Shown in pieces: positions 4,259 through 63,767 of a stretch of DNA of 64,000 nt. The first letter of the stretch is position 1. Every line of letters begins with the position of its first letter. A program made the position numbers and the translations under genes. The notes under the pieces are model-generated. The model saw only the letters and a program-made list of their open reading frames with translations. It searched no databases and had not been told where the DNA came from. This DNA comes from an uncultured Coriobacteriaceae bacterium (GTDB lineage Bacteria > Actinomycetota > Coriobacteriia > Coriobacteriales > Coriobacteriaceae): NCBI GenBank assembly GCA_944319885.1, contig CALUFC010000001.1, forward strand, positions 248,001 through 312,000, written 5' to 3'.

Positions 4259-6142
4259 ATGGCAGAGAAGAGGATCGAATCCGAGCGCGAGCGCATCACC
4301 AAGACCGCTGAGGCAGAGGCAGAGCCCACGTCCGGCGCCCCCGAGCCCACGCCCGACGAGGAGCTCGAGATTCCGCGCGATGCGGGTGCGGTGATTCGCC
4401 GTCTCTGGGCGGTGTCCACCGGCGAGCACTGGCGATTTGCCGTCGTACTCGTGAGCGTGGTGTGCTATGCCGCATCGAGTATCGCGGCGCCTGCATACAG
4501 CGCGCATCTCATCGACTTGCTGTGGGCAAATATCCAAGAGGCGTTTGCGGCGGGTCAGACGTTCTCCATTGGCTGGAGCACCGGCGGCCGTGAGGTGCTT
4601 GTGCTGCTGGGTATCTGGACGCTCGCGTGGGTCTTCTATACGATCCAAAACTTCACGATGGCGAGCTTCGCGGAGCGCCTGAACCTCAAGCTGCGTCATC
4701 GCCTCGCCGAGAAGCTCAATGTGCTGCCGCTGAAATACTATGACGCGCATAAGCCGGGCGATATCATGAGCCGCGCCACCAACGACCTCGATAAGGTGTC
4801 GGAGGTGCTGCAGCGTGGCCTGCTGTCGATGCTTATCGCGGTGGGTTCGGTTACCGGCGCCATCATCATGATGTTCCGCTACAACATCGTGCTTACGGCG
4901 GTTTTCTTGGCGTTCGCCTGCGCCGCGGTGCTTATGACGCGCGTGGTGGCCAAGCGGACCCTTGTGTATGCGGCGCGCCAGCAGCATGCGGTGGGCGTGC
5001 TCACGGGGCACGTCGAGGAGGCGTACTCCGGGCGCATCGTCATCAAGGCGTTTAACCAGGAGCATGCGAGCTCGCAGCGCATCCATGCCGCCACGAGCGA
5101 GCTTGCCGATGCCATGCGCAAAACCGACTTCGTGACCAACGTCGTAGCTCCCATGGTGCGCTGCCTGGTTCGTTTCTCGCAGGTGATTTTGGCGCTTATG
5201 GGGACGGGCTTCTTGCTTCAGGGGCAGCTTACCATCGGTACGCTGCAGGCGTTCTTCCAGTATGTGAATACCGCCGCCGAGCCGCTTACGCAGTTTTCGC
5301 TCACGATGAACCAGCTGCAGAGCGCGCTTGCAGCGGTGGAGCGCGTCTTCGATATTCTCGATGAGGAGGAGATCGAGCCCGATCCCGCCGAGCCGGTAGC
5401 GGTGCCGCGGCCGGTGCACGGCAGGGTGGCGTTCGAGCATGTGCGCTTTGGCTATGACCCAGCCCACCTGCTCATGCGCGATGTGAGCTTCACTGCCGAG
5501 CCGGGGCAGAAGGTTGCGATTGTGGGTGCAACGGGTGCGGGCAAGACGACGCTCATCAACCTGCTCATGCGCTTCTACGAGATCGATGGCGGGCGTATCA
5601 CACTCGATGGAGTTGACACGCGTACCATGACTCGTGCGGATTTGCGACGCAACTTTGGCATGGTGCTGCAGGATGCGTGGCTGCGCGAAGGCACGATCGC
5701 CGAGAACATCGCCTATGGTGCGCCGTATGCCACGACCGACGAGATCGTACAGGCCGCCAAGACAGCGCAAGTCGACTTCTTTGTGCGCACGATGCCGCAC
5801 GGCTATGAGACCGAGCTGGCAAACGATGCGGAGAGCATTAGCCAAGGCCAGCGTCAGCTGCTTACTATCGCACGCGTGCTGCTGGCGAACCCCTCGATCC
5901 TTATCCTCGATGAAGCGACTTCAAGCGTTGATACGCGCACCGAGAAGGCGATCGTCACGGCGATGGAGAAGCTCACGCAGGGTCGTACGAGCTTTGTGAT
6001 CGCGCATCGGCTCTCCACCATCGTGGATTCCGACCTCATCTTGGTGATGGATCATGGCAACATCATCGAGCAGGGGACGCACGACGAGCTGGTTGCAGCC
6101 GGCGGCGCGTATGCCGAGCTCTATCAAAGCCAGTTTGCCTGA
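4259..6142 (+). CDS. ABC exporter half-transporter, catalytic-site subunit
   Basis: A 627-residue partner of the preceding gene. A charged N-terminal extension of about 45 residues precedes six membrane segments and an ATPase domain. Walker A is GATGAGKTT (423-431). The signature is ISQGQ (527-531), a variant of SGGQ. The catalytic Glu is present (LDEATSS, Glu552), as is the switch His583 (IAHRLST). The normal Walker B and H-loop with an altered signature complement the degenerate subunit, so the pair should form one working and one degenerate ATP site. The start at 4259 follows a GGGAGGCG ribosome site and is 2 bp past the upstream stop. The substrate is not evident. Confidence 0.9.
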   Translation: MAEKRIESERERITKTAEAEAEPTSGAPEPTPDEELEIPRDAGAVIRRLWAVSTGEHWRFAVVLVSVVCYAASSIAAPAYSAHLIDLLWANIQEAFAAGQTFSIGWSTGGREVLVLLGIWTLAWVFYTIQNFTMASFAERLNLKLRHRLAEKLNVLPLKYYDAHKPGDIMSRATNDLDKVSEVLQRGLLSMLIAVGSVTGAIIMMFRYNIVLTAVFLAFACAAVLMTRVVAKRTLVYAARQQHAVGVLTGHVEEAYSGRIVIKAFNQEHASSQRIHAATSELADAMRKTDFVTNVVAPMVRCLVRFSQVILALMGTGFLLQGQLTIGTLQAFFQYVNTAAEPLTQFSLTMNQLQSALAAVERVFDILDEEEIEPDPAEPVAVPRPVHGRVAFEHVRFGYDPAHLLMRDVSFTAEPGQKVAIVGATGAGKTTLINLLMRFYEIDGGRITLDGVDTRTMTRADLRRNFGMVLQDAWLREGTIAENIAYGAPYATTDEIVQAAKTAQVDFFVRTMPHGYETELANDAESISQGQRQLLTIARVLLANPSILILDEATSSVDTRTEKAIVTAMEKLTQGRTSFVIAHRLSTIVDSDLILVMDHGNIIEQGTHDELVAAGGAYAELYQSQFA

Positions 6143-6162: not shown

Positions 6163-6294
6163 TTTTTTCAGCTGCGCAATGGTTTTAGGGCGCCCTTCCA
6201 TATAGGGGCGCCCTTTTGCCGTTAAACCTGCAGGATTTCTGCGGGCAATTTCGCCGTCTATTCCGTGCGCTGACGCCAAAGCATTGAATATCTG
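6163..6294. repeat. Palindromic intergenic element, copy A (short centre)
   Basis: The left arm has TTTTTTCAG (6163-6171), N5, CAATGG (6177-6182), N18, then TATAG (6201-6205). The centre is 52 nt (6206-6257). The right arm has CTATT (6258-6262), N18, GCATTG (6281-6286), N5, CTG (6292-6294), then CAAAAG. The spacings match the other six copies except for the centre, which is 11 nt shorter than the usual 63. It starts 20 bp after the ABC operon, and that operon's terminator hairpin overlaps its left half. A TTAAACCTGC at 6222-6231 resembles, in reverse, the central core seen in other copies. Confidence 0.75.
6187..6217 (+). terminator. Terminator of the first ABC exporter operon
   Basis: Arms AGGGCGCCC and GGGCGCCC are separated by a short A/T-rich loop and followed by TTTT. 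The hairpin sits inside repeat copy A and ends the marR-ABC transcript. Confidence 0.75.
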
Positions 6295-6300
6295 CAAAAG

Positions 6301-6494
6301 CCATGGAATCCCCCTTGCCCGTTGCTGTGTTTTGCGCCGATGAAGCGTGTTTGCTACGTGTTTTAGCTGCTGTGTGAGAAGTGCTGTCCGACGTGTTGGA
6401 ATCGCGTTGGAATCATGTGAGGCATCGAAGAAAAGCTGATAGATCGCGATGGCAAGATTGGCCTGCAGTGAAGTGCTGAGGGGAGGAGGCATGG
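6301..6494 (+). promoter_or_regulatory. Leader of the nuclease-like gene, with an 11-bp-spaced direct repeat
   Basis: A non-coding stretch with lower GC than its surroundings. It holds GTTGGAATC twice in direct orientation (6395-6403 and 6406-6414), exactly 11 bp apart, or one helical turn. A strong GGGAGGAGG ribosome site at 6481-6489 serves the downstream gene. I see no convincing -35/-10 pair. The direct repeat could be a regulator site. Confidence 0.35.
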
Positions 6495-6497
6495 GCC

Positions 6498-7688
6498 ATG
6501 ATTGTTATTGCGGGTCGATCGGCGTGGGAGTGGTGGCGGACACCGCCTGTCGTGCGCGAGATTGAACTGGACATGGAGGATGTTCGTTCGCGGTTAGGGA
6601 AAGAGGTCCCTTCGGTTGTTCTCCATGAAAGAAAGAATGCGAGTGAGGCGGCGCGGCTGGTGGTCGGGAGACTGCTCGGTGAGCTGAAGGGCGTATCACT
6701 GCCGGTGGATGTGGTGGTTCCTCAAGGGCATTATGATGGACGGACTCGCCTGCTTAATCCGAGGCGCTCCTCAATATCGGATTGCCCGAAGCATCTGGTG
6801 GATAGGGGCGGCGGTCTTCATGTGGCTTCAGTCGAGCTTGCTGTGATACAGATGGCTGCGCATGAGTCTCTGGTGGGCGTCATTGAAGCGATGTACGAAG
6901 CATGCGGGCTCTATGCTTTATGTCCGCAAACGGGCCGGAATCTTGTTGCCCTGGAATTGATGAGGTCGTTTGCCGCGGCAAACGACCCCACTCCACAAAG
7001 TGGGGTTGCGGCTTATACAGATGAATGGGGAAGAAAGATCCCACATTATTCACGCGATGGGGAGGAGCTGGTCTGGACGCCGTGTGTTGATCGACATGGT
7101 TCATGGACCAGCATCTGGAAGCGTTCCCCGCTTACCCAGCCGGAACGCATCGTCTGCGCTATCGCCGATGTTCCCGGGTTGGAGGGACGTCGTCGCGCTG
7201 CCCGAGCCGCTCGATATGTATGCGGAGGCTCGGGCTCTCCGTTGGAGACAAAGGTCGTCATGCTGATTTGCCTTCCGCCGATGTTGGGTGGGGAGCATCT
7301 TCCATTTCCAGAGCTGAACAAACGGATTGCGTTCAGTGAGGGTGCAAGGCGCCTCGCCGGCATGAGGTGTTGTGTTGCCGACATGCTGTGGCCAAAGCAG
7401 CGCGTCGTTGTCGAGGTAAACGGTCTCTCCTTTCATGCGGATCGAGATGGCTTCATCGAGCATTCGGGTCGTCGCGCAGCTTTGGAGGCGGATGGTTATC
7501 GCGTGATAGACATCAACTACACGCAGGCAGCGCATCTCGAACAATGGGATTTGCTCGCCATCACGCTCGCGAAGGCGCTTGGCCGACGGCCCCAGGCGCG
7601 TATGGCGCGATTCCTGCATAATCGAGATGAACTTCATAGTCAGCTGTTCCACCATGCGGATAAACCGGAAGGCGCTCTTCTGTTCTGA
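6498..7688 (+). CDS. Uncharacterised protein with a C-terminal DUF559/Vsr-like nuclease fold
   Basis: A 396-residue protein with no membrane segment. The last third resembles DUF559/very-short-patch-repair-like PD-(D/E)XK domains. It has VADMLW with Asp295, then VVVEVNGLSFHAD with Glu306 and a His nearby, then RRAALEADGYRVIDIN. The usual Lys of (D/E)XK is Asn308, as occurs in DUF559-type proteins. The first two-thirds are not recognised; four Cys near residues 137-145 and around 195 are unlikely to form a clear zinc site. The gene lies between two copies of the palindromic intergenic element. A mobile or defence-related role is possible but unproven. Confidence 0.6.
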   Translation: MIVIAGRSAWEWWRTPPVVREIELDMEDVRSRLGKEVPSVVLHERKNASEAARLVVGRLLGELKGVSLPVDVVVPQGHYDGRTRLLNPRRSSISDCPKHLVDRGGGLHVASVELAVIQMAAHESLVGVIEAMYEACGLYALCPQTGRNLVALELMRSFAAANDPTPQSGVAAYTDEWGRKIPHYSRDGEELVWTPCVDRHGSWTSIWKRSPLTQPERIVCAIADVPGLEGRRRAARAARYVCGGSGSPLETKVVMLICLPPMLGGEHLPFPELNKRIAFSEGARRLAGMRCCVADMLWPKQRVVVEVNGLSFHADRDGFIEHSGRRAALEADGYRVIDINYTQAAHLEQWDLLAITLAKALGRRPQARMARFLHNRDELHSQLFHHADKPEGALLF

Positions 7689-7747
7689 ACGGAATGAAAC
7701 GCGTCTTCCAAGTTGGCGATCGCCACTGATCCCAGGCCTCAATTGCG

Positions 7748-7885
7748 AAAATGCAGGCATTCAATGGATTGCGGCGAGCCTGCAGGGTAGCGGGGGTTCA
7801 TGTATGCGAAAACAGCGAGATGGAGGGGCTGGAGCTTCGTTAGCTACTGGGAGCGTCGAAGGAAAACCCTTGCGTTGCTGAAAAA
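7748..7885. repeat. Palindromic intergenic element, copy B (short centre)
   Basis: The left arm has AAAATGCAG (7748-7756), N5, CAATGG (7762-7767), N18, GGTAG (7786-7790). The centre is 53 nt. The right arm has CTACT (7844-7848), N18, CCCTTG (7867-7872), N5, CTGAAAAA (7878-7885). It begins 59 bp after the nuclease-like gene. With copy A it brackets that gene, and these two are the only copies with the shorter centre. Short open frames crossing it have no family resemblance. Confidence 0.8.
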
Positions 7886-8066: not shown

Positions 8067-8954
8067 TTAGCCCTGGTTCATGGGGATACCCTTGCCTTCG
8101 TTGGGCGGACGTGCTTCGGTGAGCTCGCTGTAGTCGACATTTGCTGTTGACGGCTTCATTTCGCCGGGGGCGAACCAGTCGAGCGCGCAGTCGATCCAGG
8201 CGTTCCAGAATGGCCACTCGTGGCTTCCGATTTCGGGCTCCCAATAGGTGACATCGAATCCGGCCTCTTTGAGAAGGTGCGCCACCTCGCGATTGTTATC
8301 GCACAGATTGTCGTGCTCGCCGCAGGCGCCATAGAACTTGGGCTTCGGCAGCTCGGGATTCTGCTTGAAGCGCTCGAGCAGCGTAACGTAGTCCTTTTCC
8401 GAGCCGATGACGGTGTCAAGATCGCCGAAGAACCGCTCGTAGTACCGACGCTTGCGCGGCGAGTGCGAATCGACCGCCTCGAGCACGCGGTCGCGCATGA
8501 ACGCGCCGGAGAGGGCCACGATCGAGCCAAATCGATCAGGGCGCAGCAGGCCGTTGATGAGCGCGGTGTAGGCGCCGATCGAAATGCCGGCGAGCGCGGT
8601 ATCCTCGCGCTTGCGCGACAGCGGGAACAAGCGCCGCGTGACCTCAACGAGCTCTTCCGAGATGAACTTGCCGTGGTACTCGTTGATTTCGGGCTTGTTG
8701 AGATACAGCCCGTCTTCGCCCGACGGCATGATGACCGCGACATCGCGCGCCTCGGCGGTTTGGACAACGTGCGTCCTGTCGATCCAGTCGTAATCGCGGC
8801 CAAAGAGACCGTGAAGCAGGTACATCGTCCGATACGGCCCTTGCCGACGTTTCGCGAGCTTGGTGCCGTCCATCTTGTCGACGGGGATCACGGCAGAAAG
8901 AATGACGTTTCTCTGGAGGTAGCGGGAATAGAAATCAACTCGGAGCAGTGCCAT
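8067..8954 (-). CDS. Alpha/beta-hydrolase esterase, FrmB/S-formylglutathione hydrolase-like
   Basis: A 295-residue soluble hydrolase of the esterase D/FrmB (tributyrin esterase) family. The nucleophile elbow is GISIG with Ser125. The acid is probably Asp215 in GEHDN and the base His245 in SHEW. The YLLHG oxyanion segment lies near residue 45. The family acts on acyl esters, including S-formylglutathione. The real substrate cannot be read from sequence, and no glutathione pathway gene is nearby. It is the second gene of a minus-strand pair with a paralogue starting 34 bp upstream of its own start. Confidence 0.85.
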   Translation of the reverse strand: MALLRVDFYSRYLQRNVILSAVIPVDKMDGTKLAKRRQGPYRTMYLLHGLFGRDYDWIDRTHVVQTAEARDVAVIMPSGEDGLYLNKPEINEYHGKFISEELVEVTRRLFPLSRKREDTALAGISIGAYTALINGLLRPDRFGSIVALSGAFMRDRVLEAVDSHSPRKRRYYERFFGDLDTVIGSEKDYVTLLERFKQNPELPKPKFYGACGEHDNLCDNNREVAHLLKEAGFDVTYWEPEIGSHEWPFWNAWIDCALDWFAPGEMKPSTANVDYSELTEARPPNEGKGIPMNQG

Positions 8955-30669: not shown

Positions 30670-30817
30670 TTTTTCAGGTACGCAATGGTTTAGTGGGAAT
30701 GCCCTGAGTAGACCTGTTTGTGCATCGAAGAATGCGCAGGTAAAGGTTTTGCTTGATGTCGGTAACATGCGTCGCTACTCGGAGGTCCGGCACTGAACTC
30801 TTGCGAAGCTGAAAAAA
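30670..30817. repeat. Palindromic intergenic element, copy C
   Basis: The left arm has TTTTTCAG (30670-30677), N5, CAATGG (30683-30688), N18, AGTAG (30707-30711). The centre is 63 nt. The right arm has CTACT (30775-30779), N18, CTCTTG (30798-30803), N5, CTGAAAAAA (30809-30817). The core GCAGGTAAA sits at positions 25-33 of the centre (30736-30744). All spacings agree exactly with copies D to G. It lies between the HAD phosphatase and the GntR gene. Confidence 0.85.
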
Positions 30818-36757: not shown

Positions 36758-36905
36758 TTTTTTCAGATACTCAATGGTTGGGCGGGGATGGGCTGAGTAG
36801 TCAAGAAGGCACGTTGAAGAACCTGCAGGTAGAGAGCTCGATTAAGAGCTGCGGCATGCATGCCTACTCCAGATGCCGTCTTTAAACCATTGAGAGACTG
36901 AAAAA
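36758..36905. repeat. Palindromic intergenic element, copy D (clearest copy)
   Basis: The left arm has TTTTTTCAG (36758-36766), N5, CAATGG (36772-36777), N18, AGTAG (36796-36800). The centre is 63 nt (36801-36863). The right arm has CTACT (36864-36868), N18, CCATTG (36887-36892), N5, CTGAAAAA (36898-36905). The core GCAGGTAGA lies at positions 25-33 of the centre. Every box matches the family consensus. It lies between the PTS operon and the his operon. Confidence 0.88.
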
Positions 36906-44678: not shown

Positions 44679-44826
44679 AAAATGCAGGCATGCAATGGTT
44701 TTGCTCCGGGGTGCCTAGTAGCACGCTGCGGGGGCTGGAGAAACTCCTGTGTCAAAGAGGTGCGATAGTGCTCGACGGCGCGGGATACTCGACGGCCCCC
44801 GCTTAATCTATTGAATACCTGAAAAA
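44679..44826. repeat. Palindromic intergenic element, copy E, inside the his operon
   Basis: The left arm has AAAATGCAG (44679-44687), N5, CAATGG (44693-44698), N18, AGTAG (44717-44721). The centre is 63 nt. The right arm has ATACT (44785-44789), N18, CTATTG (44808-44813), N5, CTGAAAAA (44819-44826). It fills nearly all of the 207-bp gap between hisI and hisE, where every other his junction is 41 bp or less. A GCGGGGGC in the centre pairs with GCCCCCGC in the right N18. The central core seen in copies C, D, F and G is not clear here. Confidence 0.82.
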
Positions 44827-59003: not shown

Positions 59004-59154
59004 TTTTTTCAGATATTCAATGGTTTGTTCTCGACCCTTTGAGTAGCCTGCACGACACGTTCGATGTATCGATCTGTTTACCTGCGATAATGTGAGGCTT
59101 CAATTCCAGCTACTCCGATGTCGGATGTTGAACCATGGAATGCCTGCATTTTTG
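59004..59154. repeat. Palindromic intergenic element, copy F
   Basis: The left arm has TTTTTTCAG (59004-59012), N5, CAATGG (59018-59023), N18, AGTAG (59042-59046). The centre is 63 nt. The right arm has CTACT (59110-59114), N18, CCATGG (59133-59138), N5, CTGCATTTTT (59144-59153). GTTTACCTGC (59076-59085) is the central core in reverse, so this copy points opposite to C and D. It starts 48 bp after the ppx/gppA stop. The next 107 bp up to the terminator show nothing I can name. Confidence 0.85.
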
Positions 59155-63617: not shown

Positions 63618-63767
63618 TTTTTGCAGCTGCGCAATGGTTTAGAACCAGCATGCTGAGTAGCGGCATGGATATGCAACGAGGACTACGCCGTTTATCTCCG
63701 CTATTTCTAGCAAGGATTGGGGTCTATCCAGCAGATTGTGGTCAAACCATTGCCTAGCTGAAAAAAA
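63618..63767. repeat. Palindromic intergenic element, copy G
   Basis: The left arm has TTTTTGCAG (63618-63626), N5, CAATGG (63632-63637), N18, AGTAG (63656-63660). The centre is 63 nt. The right arm has CTATC (63724-63728), N18, CCATTG (63747-63752), N5, CTGAAAAAAA (63758-63767). TTTATCTCCG (63691-63700) resembles the reversed central core. It lies 189 bp after the SPFH stop. Confidence 0.83.

Follow-up and report, generated by a model that had tools for sequence, protein, structure and literature searches.

A nuclease gene enclosed by palindromic elements in a Coriobacteriaceae genome: linkage with families of dispersed intergenic repeats

What connects a nuclease gene with the two palindromic repeats that enclose it, when other copies of the same repeat are scattered through the genome without any such gene? 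This question is raised by a locus of a gut Collinsella, an uncultured Coriobacteriaceae bacterium (genome G000), located within the window, i.e. the whole 64-kb stretch of DNA that was analysed. The answer which we consider probable, if not assured, is that the gene and the palindromes form an enzyme/DNA-element pair comparable to a REPtron (TnpA-REP/RAYT), in which the enzyme is an unrelated one.

The locus, its palindromes and the encoded protein

Seven palindromic elements, A to G, were identified in the window with a model of the arms derived from the copies (Table 1). The length of their centres (the element minus 42 nt per side, which comprise the arm and the inner motif) is 52 nt in A, 53 nt in B and 63 nt in C-G, and A and B bracket a single open reading frame. 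This arrangement, including its coordinates, was thereby confirmed as originally predicted. The terminator-like hairpin found in the centre of A lies 3' of the ABC transporter gene.

Table 1. Positions of the palindromic elements, genes and associated features in the window
Feature	Position	Length	Strand	Basis or remark
ABC transporter gene	4259..6142		+	Left neighbour in all genomes compared at the site
Element A, palindromic, short-centre class	6164..6299	136 bp	.	Arm model
Left arm of A, TTTTTCAG-N5-CAATGGTTT	6164..6185		+	
Terminator-like hairpin within A, GGGCGCCC-N10-GGGCGCCC-TTTT	6188..6217		+	Read from the sequence
Right arm of A, reverse complement TTTTGCAGATATTCAATGCTTT	6278..6299		-	
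Nuclease gene	6498..7688	396 aa	+	RBS GGAGG
Region for the predicted C-terminal Vsr/DUF559-like catalytic domain	7242..7580		+	
Element B, palindromic, short-centre class	7749..7885	137 bp	.	
Esterase-like gene	8067..8954		-	Right neighbour
Solitary element C	30670..30816	147 bp		Missing at orthologous G005 site
Solitary element D	36759..36905	147 bp		Missing at orthologous G005 site
Solitary element E	44680..44826	147 bp		Between hisI and hisE; not at this place in six further genomes of the genus
Solitary element F	59005..59151	147 bp		Missing at orthologous G005 site
Solitary element G	63619..63765	147 bp		Probable G005 counterpart (L067) by sequence

The search was extended to the complete 2.02-Mb genome, in which the arm pattern, allowing 3 mismatches at most, gave 38 matches, compared with 0 for a reversed control pattern. 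Within the stretches of G000 analysed, 26 paired copies of CAATGGTTT-armed elements were recognised, and their lengths fall into two classes of 136-137 and 145-147 bp. A and B had been regarded as the only two short-centre copies, which holds within the window and fails in the genome, where five further 136/137-bp copies stand without a nuclease (C3:68443, C7:28665, C8:39678, C10:13595 and C15:13691). Short-centre copies lacking the gene, which had been named in advance as evidence against a joint unit, thus literally exist in G000; moreover, in G004, G006 and G007 copies of 137 bp are more frequent than those of any other length. The idea that a short centre marks the unit, or the presence of the nuclease, was therefore abandoned.

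The nuclease gene is atypical in its composition (GC3 of 0.58 vs 0.79 +- 0.04 for the other genes of the window). Its product contains the EDxHD-like residues E250, D295, H313 and D315; E250, D295, E306 and H313 are invariant across 12 homologues and D315 is present in most of them. The C-terminal resemblance to DUF559 (PF04480)/Vsr-like endonucleases, which formed part of the original prediction, is weak by sequence: the PF04480 match of the window protein (E=0.049, 14 bits) falls below the Pfam gathering cut-off of 20.6, the viral DUF559 and Vsr models matched weakly, and searches of NCBIfam and of the PADLOC models of known anti-phage defence systems gave no match. The putative assignment is backed by the homologues, several of which match DUF559 weakly in the C-terminal domain (best PF04480 match in a Pfam scan of 12 members, E 0.002), and by the predicted structure (pLDDT 80, pTM 0.84). 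In its C-terminal part only, this model resembles the catalytic domain of I-Bth0305I (3r3p; probability of 0.80 and 0.72 for two chains), which is the most sensible match among solved structures; the similarity is weak (TM 0.52 to a small target, and E 0.11 for the same entry in a profile search). No Y1 match, as expected of an HUH/Y1 tyrosine transposase, was obtained in the Pfam scan of 12 members or with the structure model.

Co-occurrence of nucleases, palindromes and arm families

In most genomes of the genus Collinsella, the ABC-transporter gene and the esterase gene either lie side by side or have the nuclease between them. In G000 and in two other Collinsella genomes, G006 and G007, the same neighbours enclose an element-nuclease-element block; the neighbouring genes are 80-86% identical and the nucleases 47-48% identical; both G006/G007 elements at the locus are 137 bp long and carry CAACAATCT arms, as opposed to the CAATGGTTT arms of G000. 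The gene and both elements are jointly missing from this site in G001, G003 and G004 (G002 and G008 are uninformative). In the nearest relative, G005, the left half of A remains, together with its terminator-like hairpin, and there is no gene.

Homologues of the nuclease were found with an alignment query; a single-sequence query of the compared genomes gave no matches. A palindrome is located close by in 15 of the 17 full-length homologues. In an arm-independent scan of the 16 situated outside the window (18-nt arms, at least 15/18 matching, within 450 bp), palindromes were detected downstream of 14 and upstream of 6, and the corresponding controls gave 2 matches among 640 shuffled 450-bp segments and 17 matches across 112.7 kb of flanking sequence farther out. 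Only two homologues, L166 and L178, were without a palindrome at the same or a looser threshold (by eye only, a decayed element can be made out downstream of L166), and homologues lacking flanking elements, the other foreseen counter-argument, are limited to this pair. Together with the presence or absence of the whole block at the ABC/esterase site, this linkage supports the prediction that the gene and the elements arrive or act together.

The CAATGGTTT arm model detected no elements beside the homologues, whose palindromes carry other arms. Each nuclease clade has its own arms: these are identical where the proteins share 81-97% identity, similar at 75%, and different in their inner part at 47-54%. 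The nucleases of L168 and L171 are 75% identical and their arms (CCAAGGTAAGGAATTC and CCAATGTAAGGATG, respectively) are related, not identical; such a difference would fit gradual co-divergence.

Every arm family searched is confined to genomes with that nuclease lineage or to their close relatives. Among the genomes compared, CAATGGTTT and GGAGCACTTTTT arms are restricted to G000 and G005; across the wider family, the CAATGGTTT pattern yielded no more than scattered single weak matches. By comparison, CAACAATCT arms occur in G004, G006 and G007, with one weak match in G003, and AAGGTAAGGAATTC arms essentially only in G001 and G003. Where counted genome-wide, the nuclease-side arms recur as solitary copies. 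Since elements are present in G004 and G005, in which the search recovered no full-length member of the matching nuclease clade, the elements can outlast the nuclease gene; arm decay in nuclease-less genomes showed no clear difference (1.08 vs 0.92 mismatches per arm), and a tblastn search of the nucleases against the element loci revealed no nuclease relics beside solitary copies. Because the arms track the nuclease clades and the arm families are confined by genome, the part of the original prediction that invoked a nuclease recognising the element appears to be the best reading.

A second nuclease of G000, L002 (G000:C8:54154-58323), is 41% identical to the first and has a downstream palindrome with GGAGCACTTTTT arms at 2719-2854 of the locus. 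Further copies with these arms are present on C3, C5, C7, C8 and C17, the paired ones spanning 127-128 bp, and two solitary copies are located on the contig of the L002 nuclease itself. A second shared site is occupied by L002, L166, L173 and L176. Regarding more remote paralogues, the one at L045:6011-7332 (G000:C12; C12:12487), with 33% over the C-terminal part, is followed 87 bp downstream by a perfect 18/18 palindrome with CACGAAGTGAGTGTTTCT arms, and three others in G000 have palindromes that are farther off and less certain.

Layout, length steps and gain of the elements

All 74 analysed copies, drawn from two families, are intergenic (intergenic DNA makes up 15% of the window), and none of the 74 shares more than 30 bp with a called gene; a coding origin was rejected on this ground. 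Their lengths are 136-138, 145-148 and 157-158 bp, with none in between and with very different centres. The concentration of lengths peaks at a period of 10.5 bp (R 0.93), a broad peak from values that are not independent, the members of one family being related by descent.

In oriented 147-bp copies, the outer TTTTTCAG-N5-CAATGGTTT arms are followed by GTAG at about 39-42, a CAGGTA-like core near 69-73, CTAC and the right arm. Outside the arms, inner motifs and core these copies are hardly conserved, and the centres carry little information; the second family follows an identical plan at 137 bp. Permutation tests in two families showed that covariation of left and right arm and spacer is mostly absent (the lowest p value, 0.014, belonged to a single arm segment of one family), and for this reason the conserved feature looks like a protein-binding layout, predicted to act on double-stranded DNA, and not like a hairpin. 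As an Rfam search of the elements also gave no match, structured RNA was rejected as their identity.

G000 alone has element E between hisI and hisE, and in six further genomes of the genus the hisI-hisE gap is short and lacks it; E is therefore a clear lineage-specific gain inside the his operon. C, D and F are missing from the matching regions of G005, where, however, the flanks differ more. No clean target-site duplication was found in the element flanks or at the E insertion.

A possible mechanism and its alternatives

We propose that the gene of one nuclease, composed of a Vsr/EDxHD-like C-terminal domain and an N-terminal half, lies next to one or two palindromes, and that the same palindromes without the gene would represent small non-autonomous elements dispersed in intergenic regions. 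The nuclease would contact both inverted arms at the same time, on a single face of the double-stranded DNA, from which length steps of about 10.5 bp would follow. The variable part of the protein may read the clade-specific arms, and the shared inner motifs (GTAG ... CAGGTA ... CTAC) may be read by its conserved part or by a host factor. Cutting followed by repair would then copy the palindrome to new intergenic sites, the whole element-gene-element block of about 1.7 kb being copied only rarely, and arms and nuclease would co-diverge afterwards. That nuclease and palindromes are cognate partners is in our view highly probable; binding and cleavage by the nuclease are inferred, and for mobilisation of the elements by the nuclease the balance could tip either way. 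The lack of a clean target-site duplication, the G004/G005 elements without a cognate nuclease, the absence of a convincing palindrome at L166 and L178, and the weakness of the similarity to a solved structure all count against this explanation.

The likeness to REPtrons is that an enzyme gene is flanked by palindromes which are also dispersed intergenically, that a GTAG motif is present, and that enzyme and repeat co-evolve, as described for TnpA-REP and its REPs (PMC8266576; PMC3733652). The differences concern (i) size, REPs having 20-40 bp and the elements described here 124-158 bp (136-158 bp in the two families measured), (ii) the GTAG tag, which is terminal in REPs and internal here (positions 39-42), and (iii) the enzyme, since REPtrons employ an HUH tyrosine transposase processing single-stranded hairpins, whereas the present enzyme is Vsr/EDxHD-like and the arms are mostly without covariation.

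An unlikely alternative is that the block is a selfish homing cassette, whose nuclease cuts block-less alleles at a small number of fixed intergenic positions so that repair copies the block in; the solitary palindromes would then be a by-product. It would account for the recurrence of nucleases at the same sites across species (ABC/esterase and the L002/L166/L173/L176 site), the presence or absence of the block as a whole, the atypical GC3 of the gene, and the nearest solved structure being a homing endonuclease domain. The window nuclease may share the Vsr-like catalytic fold and an EVNG-type motif with I-Bth0305I, an EDxHD homing endonuclease that works as a dimer and whose target, at nearly 60 bp, is unusually long (PMC3943268); however, the similarity is weak and restricted to the C-terminal domain, the present locus has no intron, and a dispersed palindrome would be the target. 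Moreover, shared sites are also expected from vertical inheritance with fast divergence, and homing alone leaves about 24 solitary copies at unrelated sites and the fixed internal spacing unexplained.

Rather improbable is a regulatory role, in which the palindromes serve as operators of the nuclease gene and of other genes, the dispersed copies being regulatory and the nuclease fold serving in binding. Fixed helical spacing would suit a looped regulatory complex, and the terminator-like hairpin in A is also in keeping with such a role; however, the copies avoid divergent intergenic regions, the home of promoters (27 convergent vs 6 divergent settings), the sites differ between close species, and catalytic-type residues are invariant across the homologues.

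We find it still harder to believe that the palindromes are a separate MITE family moved by another transposase, with nuclease genes merely sitting between copies in tolerated intergenic sites. The elements do share with MITEs and ERIC-like palindromes their short, non-coding, inverted-repeat character, intergenic location, patchy occurrence and gain in one lineage, but MITE copies are alike including the centre, whereas here the centres are not conserved apart from a short core and the spacing is fixed; neither a linked cognate nuclease gene, a palindrome beside 15/17 homologues, nor clade-specific arms tracking the nuclease tree would be expected. Finally, the chance placement of an orphan nuclease gene between two unrelated repeats, to which the gene-less short copies might have pointed, is hardly credible in view of the linkage at 15/17 homologues, the clade-specific arms, the 2/640 shuffled controls and the G006/G007 locus.

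Returning to the REPtron-like pairing, we raise with some reserve, and with doubts outweighing confidence, the suggestion that it represents a new enzyme/repeat class: a Vsr/EDxHD-type nuclease would read the two helically phased arms of large double-stranded palindromes and spread these as miniature mobile elements, enzyme and recognition sequence would co-diverge species by species, and two independent pairs would coexist in one genome. The pairing of nuclease and palindromes was not described in the literature searched, a search outside which most subscription papers lay. If true, small palindromic repeats would be tied to a nuclease whose fold is unlike that of the REPtron HUH transposases, and natural sets of matched and mismatched enzymes and sites (at least 10 arm families) would be available for studying the evolution of specificity. 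The 10.5-bp length steps would also directly predict how the protein holds DNA.

Several minor observations concern the copies themselves. The outermost five bases of the elements are TTTTT or AAATG (types 1 and 2), and in type 1 the ends of an element differ from each other more often than in the shuffled expectation (0.575 vs 0.676 matching). The window holds 7 of the 26 paired type-1 copies of G000, and five of these lie no more than 57 kb downstream of the nuclease gene; clustering near the nuclease in the window has a binomial p of about 0.012, and a tendency of copies to cluster near their own nuclease (p 0.012, 0.026 and 0.12) is suggestive only. Three 157/158-bp copies in G004/G006/G007 contain another large hairpin in the centre, unlike that of A.
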